Assembly (NCBI GenBank): GCA_013298565.1
Contig: JAAFIC010000017.1
Location: 1-44,071 of the forward strand
Reading direction: 5' to 3'
Length of the DNA: 44,071 bases
Source: Alphaproteobacteria bacterium
GTDB taxonomy: Bacteria; Pseudomonadota; Alphaproteobacteria; Elsterales; Elsteraceae
In this document: positions 6,999 to 15,368 of the stretch, one piece after another
Layout of the letters: every line of letters begins with the position of its first letter
How positions within the stretch are numbered: the first letter of the stretch is position 1
Notes under the pieces: model-generated
Told to the model about the DNA's origin: nothing
Seen by the model: only the letters and a program-made list of their open reading frames with translations
The model's database searches: none
Made by a program: the position numbers and the translations under genes

Positions 6999-7705
6999 TA
7001 GGCTGTTATTGGGCAGAAGACGTTCTCGGTAAAGATGTTTTTAATGCCAAAACTTGGCTTAGAGTTGCGTGCGATTAACCGGACTCGGCTCTAAAAGCAG
7101 CATCAGGCGTGTTTGACACGCCAAGCGTGTCGGGTGAGGTTGCGGCCAAGGGCGCGGATGCGCCCGGCCAAGCGCTTGGCGTGTCAAACGTACCGGGCGG
7201 TGAGGGCTAAGATAAAACTAGAGCGTCTTGCGTCAACCTTTACGCAAGACGCTCTAAAGCGTAAGCGGCGGGGGTAACCCCGCCATCTGTTTGGCTCCCA
7301 ATCGAATCCGACACACAGAACCGGTGTCTGCTGTGACAAGATTATCGTTAAATCATTAAAAAAACTCTTATGGATGAATATGCTGCCCTAATTTACAACC
7401 AAGCGCTACAACCGGAACCGCGATGCTGTCATCCGAAAATTCTTCGGATGACACTATAAACTGTAGATATTTTAAGAAGCTGCACGGACATGCGTTCGGC
7501 AGAATTTACGCTTAGAGGCGTATTAGCTTAGGGGGGCAAGAATTATCTTGTTTTCCTTGAGTTTTTGGTTGGGTTGCGGCATTGTGGCGCACACATTGGT
7601 GTGCGGGCTTGCTTGTCCTGTTTCCAGGATGCTCTTTTAGTTTAGGGGCTTTCTTTAGGATTAAGAGGTTTGCACTGAATCAAATGACAATAGGAACCTC
7701 GGATA
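6999..7705. other. 707-base gene-free, hairpin-rich region
   Basis: No convincing coding frame is present on either strand. The left third holds one copy of the dispersed repeat (7087-7256). Further right are perfect stems: 7267-7273 with 7278-7284 closing a GTAA tetraloop; 7427-7437 with 7443-7453 (11 base pairs, 5-base loop); 7588-7594 with 7599-7605 (7 base pairs, ATTG loop); and 7616-7620 with 7625-7629 followed by a T-rich stretch. The right half is more AT-rich. It could hold a small RNA or a long regulated leader for the RHH gene; the sequence alone does not decide. Confidence 0.5.
7087..7256. repeat. Dispersed intergenic hairpin repeat, copy 1 (long form)
   Basis: The core 7144-7166 and the tail from about 7200 to 7256 recur almost identically at 28556-28578 and 28584-28639. 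The tail ends in a perfect 15-base inverted repeat (7219-7233 with 7242-7256, 8-base loop). This copy also has a perfect 17-base inverted repeat, 7111-7127 with 7173-7189, enclosing the core; that repeat is absent from copy 2. No coding capacity is seen, so it is probably a small non-autonomous palindromic element. Confidence 0.75.
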
Positions 7706-8152
7706 GTGACCACCAGTGATAGTGATGAGGGTGCCCGCCATCGTCGGACTGTAATTGTATCGGGGCGGCGAACCAGTATCAGCGTTGAAGTCGCTATCTG
7801 GGATGCGCTAACAGATGTTTGTAAGCGCGAAGAATGCACGCTGTCTGATCTGCTAACCCTTGTGGATCAGCGCCGCCTGGGCGCGAGTCTTGCTTCGGCG
7901 ATCCGGGTTTTTTCCATTTTCTACTTCCGCGCTTTGGCGGGTATCGGGATGCAAGCCCCCCAGATGGCGCAAGGTTTGTCCGAAACGCCCGCCCCCTTCG
8001 AGATTCCGACGGCAGGGTTTCAAACGGTCGTGCCGCCGGTTGCTGGGGGTGTTTCGCTGCTCGATCCGGTCTTAGAAGCGTTTGAAGCCAATCGCCGCGC
8101 CCGCCTGCAAGTCCTGGCCGAGGAGGGTGAGGAAGACGGGGCGAGGCTTTAA
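7706..8152 (+). CDS. Ribbon-helix-helix (RHH_4-type) domain protein
   Basis: A 148-residue protein with an N-terminal RHH_4-type domain at about residues 13-75. A strand RRTVIVSGRRTSISVEVAIW leads into a helix ALTDVCKREECTLSDLLTLV, then SLASAIRVFSIFYFR. This matches the alphaproteobacterial family in which the C-terminal helix reads SSALRVF.L.Y. The C-terminal 70 residues are proline-rich then acidic and of unknown function. GTG 7706 is the apparent start, with the AGGAAC stretch 10-15 bases upstream as a weak ribosome site. Such proteins are presumed DNA-binding dimers, and the target here is unknown. The long hairpin-rich leader in front is a possible control region. Confidence 0.75.
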   Translation: MTTSDSDEGARHRRTVIVSGRRTSISVEVAIWDALTDVCKREECTLSDLLTLVDQRRLGASLASAIRVFSIFYFRALAGIGMQAPQMAQGLSETPAPFEIPTAGFQTVVPPVAGGVSLLDPVLEAFEANRRARLQVLAEEGEEDGARL

Positions 8153-8301
8153 GGTTAAGATCAGCCTCCAATCCCCTGCCTTACCTTATGAAAATATAAA
8201 ACCCCCGCTTTGTTCTGATTGACGCGCGAATCGGTATGACTTAAAAAAGTCAGCAGGTTATAGCGTATTCTTGCGGTAATGACGGTCAGGGGTAGCGGGG
8301 G

Positions 8302-9126
8302 ATGACACTCGATCGACGGCAGTTTTTGAGGCAAGCACTCCTCATCGGCGGCACCGCTCTGATGGCGGAGGAGGCGTTTGCTCAGGCCGCCCAGCAGTTG
8401 ATTACCAATGCGTCGGCGGGCAAAATCAGCAAAAAACCTTTAATTATTCCGAAAAAAATCATTGCGATCGACGCCGGACACGGCGGTAAAGACCCCGGTG
8501 CGATTGGCGCGCACGGCACCTATGAAAAGCAAATAACCTTTGCTGTCGCGCGCGAGTTGGCTCGCCAGCTTGAGGCGACCGGCCGCTACACGCCAGTTCT
8601 GACCCGCCGGAACGATAGTTTTGTGGCCCTAGGCCAGCGCGTTGTGGCCGCCCGTAAGGCAAATTCAGCGCTTTTCTTGTCCTTACATGCCGATTCCGTT
8701 CCGAATAACCCCGACGCACGCGGATTCTCGGTCTATACCTTGTCTGATAAAGCTTCGGACAGCATGACCGCTGCGCTGGCCGACCGCGAGAATGCGGCTG
8801 ATTTTGTCGGCGGGCTTGATCTCTCGCACCATTCCCGGCAGGTGAAAACCATTCTACTGGACCTGATGCACCGGGAAACGACGAATAGTTCTCTCGCGAT
8901 GGCCCACGCGACCCTTTCGAAGATGGCCCCGAGTTTTGTTCCGCTGCAAAAGCCGCACCGGCAAGCCAATTTCGCCGTACTCCGCTCCCCCGATATTCCG
9001 TCGATCTTGGTCGAAATGGGGTTTTTATCGAATAACGACGACGAAAAGGCCCTGCGGGAAGAGGCTTATCAGCGCAAGCTCGCCAGCCGTCTGACCCTAG
9101 CGGTGGATGCATTTTTCAGCGCTTGA
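8302..9126 (+). CDS. Tat-exported N-acetylmuramoyl-L-alanine amidase (Amidase_3)
   Basis: A 274-residue zinc amidase that removes the stem peptide from murein in the periplasm, as AmiA/AmiC do in cell separation. The N-terminus DRRQFLRQALLIGG with an AFA cleavage site is a twin-arginine signal (Arg5-Arg6). The Amidase_3 domain fills residues 52-272. Expected zinc ligands and catalytic residues are present: His60 in AIDAGHGG, Glu75, His129 in LSLHADS and Glu238 in LVEMGFLSN. There is no AMIN domain, so septal targeting is not encoded here. The short length is within the range of single-domain amidases. Confidence 0.93.
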   Translation: MTLDRRQFLRQALLIGGTALMAEEAFAQAAQQLITNASAGKISKKPLIIPKKIIAIDAGHGGKDPGAIGAHGTYEKQITFAVARELARQLEATGRYTPVLTRRNDSFVALGQRVVAARKANSALFLSLHADSVPNNPDARGFSVYTLSDKASDSMTAALADRENAADFVGGLDLSHHSRQVKTILLDLMHRETTNSSLAMAHATLSKMAPSFVPLQKPHRQANFAVLRSPDIPSILVEMGFLSNNDDEKALREEAYQRKLASRLTLAVDAFFSA

Positions 9127-9396: not shown

Positions 9397-11082
9397 ATGG
9401 TTAGCAATTTGAGTGTTCGGGGTAAGTTATTGCTCATTCTTGCCCTAAGTTGCATCTCCACTGTGATTATTTGTGGGGTGATTTTAATGGTTATGCGCGG
9501 CCAAATGATGGATGACCGTTTCGCCAAATTGCGGGCGGTTGTGGAAGTGGCACACGGGCTAGCACAGTCTTTCGAGGCCGATGTCGTGGCCGGGAAAACG
9601 TCTCGCGAGGACGCGCAGAAGCAGTATCGCGAGCGCCTGTATGCCATGTGGTACGATGATAAAACGAGCTATGCTGCAACGGCGAGCATGGCCGGGGTCA
9701 TGCTGGCTAACCCTGCGAACCCAAAGCTTGAGGGGCGCAACCTCATGGAGCTAAAGGACGCGACGGGCAAGCTTATTATTGCACCCCAAATTGAATTGAT
9801 GAAAAAACAGTCTGAAGCAACATTTGATTTTTATTTCCCGAAGCCAGGCGGAACGGAGCCACTTCGGAAAATTAATTATCTCAAAAAGTTTGAGCCGTGG
9901 AATATGTTTATCGCTTCAGGCGTTTATGTCGATGATGTTGAAGATCGTTTCTTAAAGTTTAGCTTGGAAATTGCAGGGCTAGCGGCTGTTTTAATGGCTC
10001 TTGCGGCTTTTACTATGCTAATTATTGCGAAGAACATTGCAACTCCACTTGCTCTTATCAATCAACACATGAACACACTGGCGAGCGGAAACCTGGACGT
10101 GCCGATTGATGTCGCCGCGCGCCGGGATGAAATTGGCCGCATGGCCGAAACTTTGCGGGCGTTTCAGGGGCAGTTGCAGTCTGCCGAGCATCTTCGGGCA
10201 GAGCATGAGCGCGATCAGCAGCGTAAATTGGCCCGCGCGGAGCAGATTGAACAGAGCATTGCCACTTTTGAACACTCCATTGGTGCGATCATCAGTCGGG
10301 TGAATCAGGCGGCGATGGAGCTTGAGCAAACCTCTGGCGCTATGGCTGCAACATCCACACAAACGTCCCGTCAGTCGGTAGAAGTATCGAGTTCGGTCGA
10401 ACAGGCGACGCAGGGAATTCAAACTGTTGCCGCCTCGGCGGTCGAATTGACGGCCTCGATTGATGATATTGGTCATCGCGTGTCTGAATCGACTCGCATG
10501 ATCGAGCAGGCGGTTGAACAAACCACGGGTAGCGATCAACAGGTGCGTGCACTGGCTGCGGCAGCCGAGAAAATCGGGGCAGTCGTGCAGTTAATTGCTG
10601 AAATCGCAGGGCAAACCAATCTCTTGGCTTTGAACGCCACCATCGAAGCTGCCCGCGCGGGTGACGCCGGTAAGGGCTTCGCGGTGGTCGCGAGTGAGGT
10701 TAAGGCTCTCGCAAGCCAGACCGCAAAAGCAACTGACGATATTACCGCGCAGGTTCAGGCGATCCAGCAGGCTACACAAAGCTCCGCCCACGCCATTCAG
10801 CAGGTTGTGGCCACTATGCTTCAGGTCAACACGTCAAGCGGGCAAATTGCTGACGCTGTGATCGGGCAAGGGGCGGCGACGCAGGAGATTGCGCGTAATG
10901 CACAACAGGTCGCCCATCGAACCGGCGAAGTCTCGAGCCGCGTTAGCGATGTTTCCGACGCGGCGCAAGGTTTGCGTGCTTCGGCTGAAACCGTTCTGTC
11001 TTCAGCCGCGCATTTGCGGGGCAGTAGCCGCAGCTTGGAAGAGCAAGTAAGTCTCTTTTTACAGCAAGTTCGTAGCAGTTAA
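9397..11082 (+). CDS. Methyl-accepting chemotaxis protein with sCache_2 sensor
   Basis: A 561-residue chemoreceptor. A membrane helix at residues 11-33 is followed by a periplasmic sCache_2-type domain (about 38-188) with [19 protein letters not shown], the [13 protein letters not shown] stretch and the closing [15 protein letters not shown] second membrane helix spans about 190-213, then HAMP (214-265) and the cytoplasmic signalling coiled coil with the hairpin tip [20 protein letters not shown]. sCache_2 receptors often sense small organic acids, but the ligand cannot be read here. There is no C-terminal CheR pentapeptide (it ends QQVRSS). The next gene begins 33 bases downstream on the same strand, suggesting one transcript. 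Confidence 0.95.
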
Positions 11083-11114
11083 CGCCCCAAATTTTGGCAG
11101 AAGGAAACTTTATC

Positions 11115-12395
11115 GTGCTTGTTGATTTCAATCATTCCAATTTTTCGCTGCGCGGGTACGACGCATGGAAAGCCCGAGCCGATACAGCAAAAATTGCTTT
11201 TGCGCCTTTCGGCGGCGGCCCCTATTACGGGTATGAAGTGGGCGTGATCGACGCGATGCAAGAGCTAGGGATTCTTCCCGATGCTATTCTGCCTGGCTGT
11301 GTCGGCAATTTCGTTGGTCTTTATCACCTCATGGCGTTGGTGGAGGGTAAGCCTGGGCCACACTACGTCGATCAATTTTCGGCACACGGCCTGATGAAAG
11401 AAAAAGACTATCTGAAAGCACCGATTCCGCCTTTATTTCCGATGCGTCTTTCGGCTTGGATGCGCGGTTTTGTTGAATACTACCAAAAGCCCGAAGCCTA
11501 TAAGGATATTTATGCGCCGGAACTATTTCCCGATGTGGTGAAAGCCGGGATGACGTGGCTTGCAAGCCCGACTGAGCGTAATTATGCACAATGGCTGCGG
11601 AATATTCTGGTCTGGAGTCCTGTCACGCGGCTTGGTCTTGGCGGCTATTTCTTTGCCCCCATCGGCCCTTTTGGCGAACTGTATGATTACACTAACCCGG
11701 AAGGTTGGATCGCCCCGGCCATCGACTGGAAAAGCGTTTATACTGATGAAGCCCCGGTTTACATGATGAGCCTGCTGCGCGTTGGGGCTGATGATGTAAC
11801 GGTAGCCACCAACTGCGGCGACCACCCAGCCTTCGTTCCGGTGGACGGGCGACGCCTTGCATCGGCGAGCAATCTGCCGTGGCTGATTGCGGAAACCAAA
11901 ATCAATGGCGAATGGTACCGGGAAAGCGCTGTGCGCGATGCGGCAACCTTAACGCCTGTTGCGCTTGAGTGCTTGCCGGAACTAGAGGTTATGATTGCGG
12001 TGCAGATTATGGCGTCTCCGGCAACCGGGCACCTTTCGATCCAACAGGGTAATCATAACAATTACTCTCTACAAGTAACCGAGATGGTCGCAACGATTGG
12101 TGATGACGATATTCACCAAGCCAAAGATTTTTTTAAGCAAAAAGGCCAAGATGTTGAGTGGATCACTGTTGAGGCAACTGCCGACAGCAATCCTTATTGG
12201 ACTTTTGAGAATATAAACCGTTGCCGTGCTCAAGGGTACGCTAGCGCAATGCGGCAATTCTTAAATAGCCCCAAACTCGCCCCCTACATCAAGCGCTGGC
12301 CCGATGCTGGAAAGAAAACGCCTGCTACGGCGGCTTTAGAGGGGGTTAATCAACTCGCGACGACCCGCAGCAATCGGCGCGCTGCCACATCCTAG
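11115..12395 (+). CDS. Patatin-like protein with Cys/Glu in place of the Ser/Asp dyad
   Basis: A 426-residue protein with a patatin-like alpha/beta layout. A Gly-rich oxyanion loop FGGGPYYGYEVGVIDAM (about residues 32-48) is followed by the nucleophile-elbow position ILPGCVGNFVG, where Cys62 sits instead of the Ser of GXSXG. Further on, the SASNLPWLIAETKINGEWYR stretch aligns with the usual SCAIPG...IDG..YVDGG region, but YRESA replaces the catalytic DGG, placing Glu270 there. GTG 11115 is chosen because AGAAGGA lies nine bases upstream; a TTG at 11094 would swallow it. It is therefore either a thiol-type acyl hydrolase or a pseudoenzyme that binds acyl chains. Its position 33 bases after the chemoreceptor gene suggests co-expression. 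Confidence 0.65.
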   Translation: MLVDFNHSNFSLRGYDAWKARADTAKIAFAPFGGGPYYGYEVGVIDAMQELGILPDAILPGCVGNFVGLYHLMALVEGKPGPHYVDQFSAHGLMKEKDYLKAPIPPLFPMRLSAWMRGFVEYYQKPEAYKDIYAPELFPDVVKAGMTWLASPTERNYAQWLRNILVWSPVTRLGLGGYFFAPIGPFGELYDYTNPEGWIAPAIDWKSVYTDEAPVYMMSLLRVGADDVTVATNCGDHPAFVPVDGRRLASASNLPWLIAETKINGEWYRESAVRDAATLTPVALECLPELEVMIAVQIMASPATGHLSIQQGNHNNYSLQVTEMVATIGDDDIHQAKDFFKQKGQDVEWITVEATADSNPYWTFENINRCRAQGYASAMRQFLNSPKLAPYIKRWPDAGKKTPATAALEGVNQLATTRSNRRAATS

Positions 12396-12561: not shown

Positions 12562-14142
12562 GTGCCGATCTTGCGTCAAGGGCTAGTGATTTTCCTGGCC
12601 GGTCTCGTGGCCCTCACACAGCCGCTTCCCGCTGTCGTTGGCGTGCGTGCGCTAACAGCAGCCCTCGTGCTGGCCGCGCCCGTCACCGCTTCTCTGTGGA
12701 GCGAGGCGGCGGAAGCGCGCAGCCGCAGCGGCGGTTATTCCCGCTCCGGCGGCAGTAGCTCGCGCACGCCCTCGTTTTCCGGGGGCAGCGGTGGCGGCTC
12801 TAGCGGTTACAGCCGCCCCAGCACAGCGCCTAGCGCACCCAGCCGCACCCCGTCGCTGTCGTCGAGCGACCGCGATGCGTCGCGCGGGGCGTCGCGTCAA
12901 GGCTTGTCGGATTTCCAGGCAAAGCAAGCGCCTCCCCCCTCAGCCCTTTCCTCAGCCCCTCGCAGCGGCGGTAGCGTTCCGAACGCGGGCGGCAGTGCTG
13001 CGAGCGGCAATAGCTACACAACAGGCAGCGGCTTGCGGGTTCCGCGCCAAACACCGGCCTATCAAAATTCTATGCCGCCCGCTTATGCCGGGCCATCGCG
13101 CTTCGGCATGATGGACGCGGCCATGCTGTTCTTCATGATGAACTCGCTTAGTACGCCCAGCCACGCCGCCTTTTTCCACAATCGCGCCCAAGACCCAGGC
13201 TATCTGGCGTGGCGCGCCGAAGCCGATAAGCTGGCGCAGACCGACCCGGAGATGAAGGCCAAGCTGGCGGAAGTGGATAAGTCGATTGCCGCCCAGGCCG
13301 GCAAACCACGCGATCCAACCTACCTACCCCCTGATGTTAAGGCCGAGGACAGTGGCGGCTTCGGTTGGGGCTGGGTGATCGTGCTGTTGGTGGTTGGCGG
13401 CGCGGTTTATTGGTTCATTCTGCGGCGGCGTAACCAACCCGCCGCCGCTGGGGAGAGTAATATGGGATCGACACCGTTCGGCCTGGGCAAAAGCATTCTT
13501 AAAAATAAGGTCGCGGGGAAAACCTCGTATCGGCCCGATTATCTGCGCTTAGGCATGGGGCTAACCCTCGATCCCTCGTCTTTCATTCTGCTGGGTCCAA
13601 CCTCTCCGGTGCCGCCCCCGGCCTATGGCGGTGGCCCTGTGAGCGTGACGGCGATCAGCACGCTTGCGGGGGAAAAAGACAGCCCGACTGCTCCTAGCCG
13701 CGCGTGGCTGACGATTTCCGACACCAGCTTCGTCGAAGTCGCCATGACCGCCCAAGGCGCCCCCGAAAACGCCCGCTATTTTGCCAAGATTGATGAAGTC
13801 TTCCCAGCCGATGCCGACGAATGGGCCTTCTGGTTAGGCGAAGAAGACGGGATGATCGGCTGGCCCGAATTTCAAACCAAGGCAGGCCATACTTACGCGC
13901 GCCAATGGTTGCCCGGCGAGCGCAGGATTGCGCCGCGCCGCTTGACCGAAACGCGCGAACAGCCGGACGGCGTGATGGAACGCACGGTATCGGCCATGCT
14001 CTATGCGCGCGATACTGGCCTTGCCGCCCCCGCGCCTGCCGCAGAATATCTGCTGGTCTTCGCCGCCGAAACCCCGGATGAAGCCTGGGTAGAACTCTAC
14101 CTCGGGATTGATTTGCCCCCCTCCAGCTTGGGACTTGCGTAA
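12562..14142 (+). CDS. DUF2491 (YjfK-like) protein with signal/anchor and Ser/Gly-rich region
   Basis: A 526-residue envelope protein. The N-terminal 50 residues hold two hydrophobic stretches (signal or anchor), then a low-complexity Ser/Gly/Arg-rich segment to about residue 160, a membrane helix at about 268-287 followed by RRRNQ, and a C-terminal DUF2491 domain (about 320-525). The domain carries the hallmark EDGMIGWPEFQTKAGHTYAR and RRLTETRE. E. coli YjfK is a shorter DUF2491 protein in a cluster with a PspA paralogue and a DUF350 protein, the same partners as here. The start is GTG 12562. The stop shares one base with the next start (TAATG). The molecular role is unknown. Confidence 0.85.
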   Translation: MPILRQGLVIFLAGLVALTQPLPAVVGVRALTAALVLAAPVTASLWSEAAEARSRSGGYSRSGGSSSRTPSFSGGSGGGSSGYSRPSTAPSAPSRTPSLSSSDRDASRGASRQGLSDFQAKQAPPPSALSSAPRSGGSVPNAGGSAASGNSYTTGSGLRVPRQTPAYQNSMPPAYAGPSRFGMMDAAMLFFMMNSLSTPSHAAFFHNRAQDPGYLAWRAEADKLAQTDPEMKAKLAEVDKSIAAQAGKPRDPTYLPPDVKAEDSGGFGWGWVIVLLVVGGAVYWFILRRRNQPAAAGESNMGSTPFGLGKSILKNKVAGKTSYRPDYLRLGMGLTLDPSSFILLGPTSPVPPPAYGGGPVSVTAISTLAGEKDSPTAPSRAWLTISDTSFVEVAMTAQGAPENARYFAKIDEVFPADADEWAFWLGEEDGMIGWPEFQTKAGHTYARQWLPGERRIAPRRLTETREQPDGVMERTVSAMLYARDTGLAAPAPAAEYLLVFAAETPDEAWVELYLGIDLPPSSLGLA

Positions 14143-14555
14143 TGACAGATATTCTCGCCGGACTCGCCGTAGGCTTGCCGCTCTTGGTGATGCATTTTGC
14201 GATAACGGCCCTCATGCTGCTCATCGGCGTCGGCTTGCACGCCCTCCTGACCCCAATGAAAGAGCGGGAGTTGGTGGCGGCGGGCAATAGCGCGGCGGCG
14301 GTCACGCTGTCGGCGGCTACTATCGGCCTCGCATTGCCCCTGGCGGCAACCCTGGCGACGGCACAAGCAACCCTCGATATTCTCATTTGGGGCGCGATTG
14401 GTGTTGCGGTTCAAGTGGCGATTTTCGGCGTTGCCCGTCTCGTCAGCCCGTCCTTGCCCAGCCGTATCGAGCGTGGGGAAATGGCTAGCGCCATTACGCT
14501 TGCGGGCTGGCAAATCGCCATCGGTCTCTTAAATGCCGCAGCTTTAGTCGGCTAA
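14142..14555 (+). CDS. DUF350 (YjfL-like) integral membrane protein
   Basis: A 137-residue hydrophobic protein with four predicted membrane helices: about residues 5-30 (AVGLPLLVMHFAITALMLL), 47-70, 77-100 and 115-135. The acidic/basic loop TPMKERELVAAGNSAAAVTL between helices one and two is typical of DUF350. It is translationally coupled to the DUF2491 gene by a TAATG junction and followed 21 bases later by pspA. DUF350 proteins accompany PspA-type proteins in the E. coli yjf cluster and elsewhere, so an inner-membrane stress role is inferred. No biochemical activity is established. Confidence 0.88.
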   Translation: MTDILAGLAVGLPLLVMHFAITALMLLIGVGLHALLTPMKERELVAAGNSAAAVTLSAATIGLALPLAATLATAQATLDILIWGAIGVAVQVAIFGVARLVSPSLPSRIERGEMASAITLAGWQIAIGLLNAAALVG

Positions 14556-14576
14556 TTTCTAACAGGGGAAAAGAGC

Positions 14577-15368
14577 ATGTTCGCGTTCATCAAGAATCTG
14601 CTGGGTGTAAAGGCCGATCAGGCGATTAAAAGCGGTGTCGAAGCGCTCGTGCGTTGGGATCCGAAAGCGGCAACCGAGGCCGAGTTGCGAACGATGGAAC
14701 AGCATCTCGACCAGTTGGGCCGCGAAGTGGCGCAAGCCCGCATCGCACTCGATAAGGAAGAGAAAGAGGCGGAGGCGATTGTCGCGCTCTACACGCAGCG
14801 CCTTGCTGCCGCCGAGCATCTGGGCGGGCAGTCTGCTGCGGAAACCGATCCGGCCAAAAAAGCCGCTATCGAAAAAAGCCTCACCACGCTTCTCGATATG
14901 CTGGAGCAGATGAGTCCCGACATCGAACGCGAAAAACAAGACGCGGTAGATGCTGAAGAGTTTCTGCGGATGCTGGAACAAACTTACGCCGATGCCGGTA
15001 GCAAGCTGCGGAACGCCCGCGCCGATCTGGAACGCGCCCAACGCGACCTAAACCGCGCCGAACAGCAACGCTCGGTCGCCGATCGTCAGGCGGAAGCCGC
15101 GCGCCGGGCCGCAGGGCTTGCCAGCACCACCGATGGTCTCGGCACGGCGCTGAAAGCGATGAAGGAAAGCGCCGAGAAGGAAAAAGTTTCAGCAGAAGCC
15201 CAACTAGCCAAAGCCAAGCTACTCTCGCTCGGCAAGCCCGAAAAAGAAGACCCCAACATCGCCGCGGCCCTGGCTGCTGCCAGCGGCAAGTTGCCCTCTG
15301 CTAATGCCGATGTGGGCGCGCGGTTGGCGGCCTTGCGCGGGCCGCAGAAGGCCCTGCCGTCGGGTTAA
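14577..15368 (+). CDS. PspA/IM30 family membrane-remodelling protein
   Basis: A 263-residue, almost entirely helical protein of the PspA/Vipp1 (bacterial ESCRT-III-like) family. An amphipathic N-terminus (MFAFIKNLLGVKADQAI) precedes long charged coiled-coil segments from about residue 35 to 215 and a short C-terminal region. It would polymerise on the inner membrane under envelope stress. It resembles YjfJ-type paralogues by context (DUF2491-DUF350-PspA). An AGGGGAA ribosome site precedes ATG 14577. Its TAA stop shares the TTAA at 15365-15368 with the stop of convergent queG. Confidence 0.9.
   Translation: MFAFIKNLLGVKADQAIKSGVEALVRWDPKAATEAELRTMEQHLDQLGREVAQARIALDKEEKEAEAIVALYTQRLAAAEHLGGQSAAETDPAKKAAIEKSLTTLLDMLEQMSPDIEREKQDAVDAEEFLRMLEQTYADAGSKLRNARADLERAQRDLNRAEQQRSVADRQAEAARRAAGLASTTDGLGTALKAMKESAEKEKVSAEAQLAKAKLLSLGKPEKEDPNIAAALAAASGKLPSANADVGARLAALRGPQKALPSG

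Follow-up and report, generated by a model that had tools for sequence, protein, structure and literature searches.

The partners usually ascribed to bacterial chemoreceptors are adaptor, kinase and methylation proteins, and the CBASS proteins CapV and CapE are soluble patatins driven by an upstream signal. The locus described here joins a chemoreceptor gene to a patatin-like gene. Patatins of the Pfam family PF01734 (PlpD, patatin, CapV/CapE) share with its patatin-like protein a common fold, the GGG loop, the elbow turn and the DGG position. However, the window protein has cysteine in place of the serine, glutamate in place of the aspartate and linkage to a chemoreceptor, and it finds no Pfam match at E ≤ 1. 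CapV and CapE are, together with PlpD, among its nearest solved folds, but in the window protein the Ser-Asp pair is replaced and the partner is a receptor. On the receptor side, the closest likeness is the bipartite CetA2/CetB2 system of Magnetospirillum gryphiswaldense, in which a membrane receptor has a partner encoded adjacently (excerpt of PMC12442639). Both cases combine a membrane chemoreceptor (MCP) with a partner from a gene pair, a putative partner in the case of the window. According to the same excerpt CetB senses redox state through FAD (PAS), whereas the window partner has a patatin fold with a Cys-Glu site. PscD and McpP, which respond to C2/C3 carboxylates, are sCache_2 receptors like that of the window, yet four of the six PscD pocket residues described in the excerpt of the PscD paper are changed here. 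In the open-licence literature we found no description of a chemoreceptor-linked patatin or of a patatin with a cysteine nucleophile, which is no proof of absence; the word patatin is absent from the main text of the alphaproteobacterial chemotaxis papers that were checked.

The window, i.e. the whole stretch of 44,071 nucleotides that was analysed, is contig C36 of a 3.0 Mb genome that is 97% complete. Its relevant features are:

9397..11082, plus strand: chemoreceptor (MCP) gene, 561 aa
9499..9966, plus strand: sCache_2 sensor region of the receptor (the sCache_2 domain itself at residues 37-188, Pfam E 1.7e-30)
Receptor residues 210-261: HAMP domain (Pfam E 1.2e-12)
Receptor residues 378-529: MCPsignal domain (Pfam E 5.4e-30)
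11083..11114, plus strand: intergenic gap of 32 bases with an AAGGA ribosome-binding-like site
11115..12395, plus strand: patatin-like gene with Cys-Glu for Ser-Asp, 426 aa from GTG 11115
11211..11219, plus strand: oxyanion loop Gly33-Gly35, GGG in 47/47 relatives
11298..11300, plus strand: Cys62 at the nucleophile elbow, codon TGT, Cys in 45/47 and Ser in 2/47 relatives
11922..11924, plus strand: Glu270 in the place of the DGG aspartate, codon GAA, Glu in 47/47 relatives

The patatin-like gene thus lies, as originally predicted, behind an sCache_2 chemoreceptor gene on the same strand, and the 32 bases between them were searched for terminator-like or promoter-like matches without finding any. 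Its open frame could also start at TTG 11094. We take GTG 11115 as the likely start, since the proteins of close relatives begin at the same place (MDVDFD...) and an AAGGA precedes it at short distance; all residue numbers of the patatin-like protein are counted from it. The membrane segments of the receptor were read by eye. The genome holds 36 MCP matches, and its CheW-domain matches are on contigs C51 and C94, i.e. on contigs other than that of the window. Further downstream, at 12562-15368, three consecutive genes encode a protein with DUF2491, a membrane protein with DUF350 and a coiled-coil protein that matches GrpE weakly (Pfam).

The patatin label could not be read from family searches with the window protein, since these gave no Pfam family at E ≤ 1 and, as best NCBIfam match, only RssA with E 0.16. 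Likewise, none of three window-type members matched PF01734 at E ≤ 10, a PHROGs search with the window protein as sole query yielded nothing usable, and phmmer against the PDB returned chance matches only. Relatives from another subclade did match PF01734 (E 5e-14, 3e-10 and 4e-14), and a profile of 32 relatives matched PlpD, whose structure is solved, with E 4e-16 in two stretches. AlphaFold2 run on the 32-sequence alignment produced a model of the window protein with pLDDT 82 and pTM 0.81, the confidence at residues 271-280 being only 64; a prediction from three sequences reached pLDDT 32. Placed with CapE, PlpD, patatin, CapV and cPLA2, the model obtained Z-scores of 16.5-20 (Foldseek, VIA-align), with CapE at 20.0, PlpD at 19.3 and patatin at 18.5 over 248-286 aligned residues. 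Together, the PF01734 matches of the relatives, the PlpD profile match and this model show that the protein encoded at 11115-12395 has a patatin fold. A defence role was considered and found no support: none of the four proteins searched matched a PADLOC family at E ≤ 1.

Close relatives of the window protein were found twice among nine genomes of its order, with distant ones in the class. The family as counted here is present in 36/248 genomes of one order and in 5/73 genomes of one family, four of which were already in the former set. Further members come from G000, G007, G008, G047, G332 and one Bradyrhizobium plasmid (G, L and C numbers are our handles for genomes, loci and contigs; g and f numbers denote genera and families), giving a total of 43 genomes or records, all Alphaproteobacteria. 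In a phylum sample, 3/398 genomes matched, all from the same class. A further search returned 13/385 genomes at E ≤ 1e-6, five of which were counted as family (G000, G007, G047, G050 and G332). The others were set aside by alignment as more distant patatins (G002 and G239 with Gly at the elbow and the Glu kept; G015 and G190 with GTSSG and DGG) or omitted as weaker matches outside the alignment (G046, G206, G227 and G289). Scans of genome contigs and of plasmids in which the window protein was the sole query found nothing; with the relative A1, two records were found among genome contigs and none among viral contigs. In genus g219, one of two patatin-like copies seems to be decaying. Short fragments of 155-161 aa, not counted as proteins, occur there in G446, G470, G489, G587 and G458; they are remnants of the first copy beyond the receptor (L124:5860-6327, L125:5700-6167, L126:5956-6423, L127:5855-6322 and L128:9720-10205), a place at which the copy is complete in G563 and G545.

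Alignment with PlpD places the serine of its elbow, GTSMG, opposite the family cysteine and the aspartate of its DGG opposite the family glutamate. In the model, Cys62 occupies the turn between the short strand 57-58 and the helix 64-77, which is the elbow. Among the 47 aligned relatives, serine replaces the cysteine in two, both from G047 (G047a and G047b); Glu270 and the glycines 33-35 are invariant, and Asp275, Arg172, Ser252, Trp362 and Asn366 are kept in 46-47. Compared with what defines PF01734, the window protein therefore has the oxyanion loop and neither the nucleophile serine of GXSXG nor the aspartate of DGX. The original prediction had put Cys62 at the serine position and Glu270 at the aspartate position of a patatin-like protein with an intact GGG loop. 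The PlpD profile alignment confirms both placements, model and alignment agree that Cys62 and not another serine is at the elbow of the predicted patatin fold, and the homologues, all with GGG, show conserved rather than random residues at both sites. In the receptor-linked clade the nucleophile is retained as Cys or Ser and is never Ala or Gly, which speaks against an enzyme that is simply dead. In a more distant clade the alignment shows an elbow Gly together with the retained Glu; if that clade does stand as outgroup, the glutamate would predate the cysteine in this lineage. We make no claim on the number of origins of the cysteine because the tree (40 rows, near-duplicates and the second patatin family left out) carries long-branch warnings.

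A survey for recurrence of the pair, proposed along with the prediction, found an MCP open frame within about 1.03 kb of the patatin-like gene in 36/42 genomes or records that could be judged, G007 being excluded since 24 bases separate the start of its gene from the edge of the contig. The two genes are on the same strand in 33 of the 36 linked cases. The MCP is divergent in G050 and G619, and in G515 it is convergent and of another type, so this last linkage may be due to chance. Within about 1 kb, no MCP was found in G580, G528, G404, G332, G008 and the Bradyrhizobium plasmid. Because genomes from the same genus are not independent of each other, genera were counted as well: linkage holds in 9/12 genera with MCP counts (22-66 MCP matches per genome), g348 through G515 only. 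Random placement would give 0.3-1.1 linked genera of 12, corresponding to P = 2e-13 for immediate neighbours, a definition under which the Cache gene of f156 strictly lies between, 4e-10 for 1 kb and 8e-8 for 3 kb. Adding the genus of G008 and Bradyrhizobium, both unlinked and outside that test, yields 9/14. The nearest copies of the window arrangement, in G484 (65% identity) and G522 (64%), have the receptor upstream on the same strand, and these receptors are sCache_2-HAMP-MCP proteins by Pfam. G647 (66-68% identity over the matched parts) also has a same-strand upstream receptor, followed by two patatin-like genes. Elsewhere the orders PAT-MCP-Cache, MCP-PAT, MCP-Cache-PAT, PAT-MCP-Cache-PAT, PAT-PAT-MCP-Cache and divergent pairs were seen, PAT denoting the patatin-like gene; no fusion of receptor and patatin-like protein was seen among them. 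As order and strand vary between families and the linkage stays, the adjacency has survived or arisen repeatedly. The divergent receptor of G050 and G619 (L037:6168-7580 and L097:175-1593) seems to be cytoplasmic; its signalling domain comes first, and its C-terminal ~200 residues are unassigned. Where the MCP is not adjacent, SBP_bac_3 proteins were observed near or beside the gene at L142:11368-12102 (G404) and at L007:3853-4626 and 7512-8507 (G008).

A second type of receptor is linked to the patatin-like gene in G047, in 13 f43 genomes and in 15 f156 genomes. In the two tested, from G598 and G572, its sensor is a four-helix-bundle domain (4HB_MCP_1); the linked receptor of G047 gave no sensor-domain match. 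In 29/29 such loci the second-type receptor is adjoined by a stand-alone protein of ~155 residues with, by eye, a signal-like start; the two such proteins tested match sCache_2 (E about 2e-12). Since the window-type receptor itself carries sCache_2, a Cache sensor, a signalling domain and a Cys-Glu patatin occur together in either case, as two genes or as three, and the set is larger than the pair of the original prediction in that it includes the Cache sensor. Behind the set in f43 comes a ParA-type ATPase (Pfam-checked), which was found beside 12/13 such loci with CheR in 11 of the 12, one stretch being cut. Past ParA in G598 come CheW, CheR, a protein resembling CheW, another MCP, CheA and CheB. 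Also the gene of G580, which has no nearby MCP, adjoins ParA and CheR. The CheW, CheR, CheA and CheB assignments, like that of a polyketide synthase in G002 mentioned below, were made by eye from the sequence. Across families the linked receptors have at least three layouts, and for this reason no single contact surface is obvious.

The PscD pocket, as described in the excerpt of PMC5062169, binds propionate via Tyr90, His103, Tyr143 and Lys156, with Trp92 and Trp145 sandwiching it. The window sCache_2 domain matches the corresponding entry 5g4y with E 6e-25 and keeps 2/6 of these residues, Tyr90 and Lys156; the remaining positions read W92->A, H103->N, Y143->F and W145->F. The receptors of G484 and G522 show the same N, F, F pattern, which a script matched in 3/4 receptors, G647 being the one unmatched. 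As aligned, the pocket is not that known for C2/C3 carboxylates, and with Tyr and Lys alone kept from the described PscD pocket the window receptor probably binds something other than small carboxylates. In the stand-alone Cache proteins all of these residues are present except Trp92, which is Ile (Tyr, His, Tyr, Trp and Lys kept; 20/29 proteins by script, the other nine by eye), and on this basis they may bind small carboxylates. Other sCache_2 domains bind L-lactate or pyruvate (excerpt of PMC12415202). Sensing of glycerol-3-phosphate was considered and dropped: the sCache_PC3 motif, as we read it in the excerpt of PMC12395807, needs His at the position of the PscD histidine, where the window receptor has Asn.

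These findings suggest that the patatin-like protein is an undescribed partner of bacterial chemoreceptors. Our preferred reading, to which we give somewhat less than an even chance, is that receptor and cytoplasmic Cys-Glu patatin form one chemosensory module with retained thioester chemistry through which acyl or lipid status reaches the receptor. The receptor would sense a periplasmic small molecule via sCache_2 and signal through CheA/CheW, with the patatin-like protein as its putative cytoplasmic partner. Cys62 and Glu270 would be the centre of a rebuilt active site that retains its oxyanion loop, and a thioester acyl-enzyme would most likely still be formed with an acyl ester, a thioester or a lipid. 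This acyl-enzyme state or its product would then convey acyl or lipid status to the receptor, as CetB works with CetA. What we infer here is co-transcription, contact between the two proteins, catalysis, the substrate and which way information flows. Against this reading count the six genomes or records that lack an MCP within about 1 kb, the possibly accidental linkage in G515, the absence of a fusion among the loci, the three or more receptor layouts and the low model confidence at residues 271-280. The original functional reading is partly supported: the residue placement, its conservation and the recurrence of the pair stand, and the fatty or polyester substrate and the role as pseudoenzyme or thiol acyl-hydrolase are conjectural. 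The link to polyesters was not kept, as no PHA gene was recognised by eye among the recurrent neighbours. A conserved receptor partner that has a lipase fold and an exchanged catalytic pair would imply either a new lipid or acyl input to chemotaxis or a new thiol chemistry of patatins. For proteins whose sole annotation is patatin-like phospholipase, the module also gives a hint of function.

The protein could instead be a pseudoenzyme, i.e. a lipid- or acyl-binding receptor subunit without turnover in which Cys62 and Glu270 shape a ligand site. The related Gly-elbow clade shows that the glutamate can persist without a nucleophile, and CetB provides a precedent for a soluble, non-hydrolytic sensor (excerpt of PMC12442639). 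However, one would expect drift in a dead site, whereas the elbow of the receptor-linked clade is only ever Cys (45 of 47) or Ser (2) and the oxyanion loop shows no variation. For these two reasons we favour retained acyl chemistry via a thioester over a dead enzyme and consider the pseudoenzyme unlikely. An ordinary metabolic thiol acyl-hydrolase, acting on a nutrient found by the receptor within a shared regulon and without contact, would agree with the fact that nutrients, C2/C3 carboxylates among them, are frequent signals for sCache_2 receptors (excerpt of PMC5062169) and with the SBP_bac_3 proteins that adjoin the gene instead of an MCP in G404 and G008. Yet the linked receptor types differ, no transporter or catabolic gene was recognised by eye among the neighbours shared by at least three genera, and in one family ParA, CheW and CheR lie next to the gene; we consider the metabolic enzyme about as unlikely as the pseudoenzyme. 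Inherited synteny without functional meaning is the least likely of the three alternatives and very improbable, for although a few genera supply many of the genomes (g219 15, g313 8 and g319 5), whose counts are not independent, the 9/12 linked genera far exceed the 0.3-1.1 expected and gene order and strand differ among families.

The module with retained thioester chemistry can be extended to a more speculative and rather doubtful proposal, a class of enzyme-coupled chemoreceptors in which a thiol patatin would form a slow acyl-enzyme with a membrane lipid or acyl ester, whose covalent state, kept next to the signalling domain of the receptor, would tune the chemosensory array. If true, a patatin fold would serve bacterial chemotaxis as a signalling subunit, and Cys-Glu would be a catalytic pair new to patatins.

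Two further groups of patatin-like genes were observed. The Gly-elbow proteins with the same glutamate are encoded at L045:5704-6720 in G002, which belongs to the window's own genus, and at L051:7542-8555 on pAB510d of Azospirillum sp. B510; both genes directly follow a polyketide synthase, annotated in B510 and named by eye in G002. A second patatin-like family has the elbow CTSGM and keeps DGA, with no Pfam match in the two members tested. Its genes lie at L007:4973-6118 (G008), L048:6861-7982 and L049:7556-8740 (G007), and L046:6618-7718 (G002). In G008 the second-family gene stands tail to tail with the window-type gene, and in G002 the next gene on its strand encodes a protoglobin MCP (L046:7816-9213).
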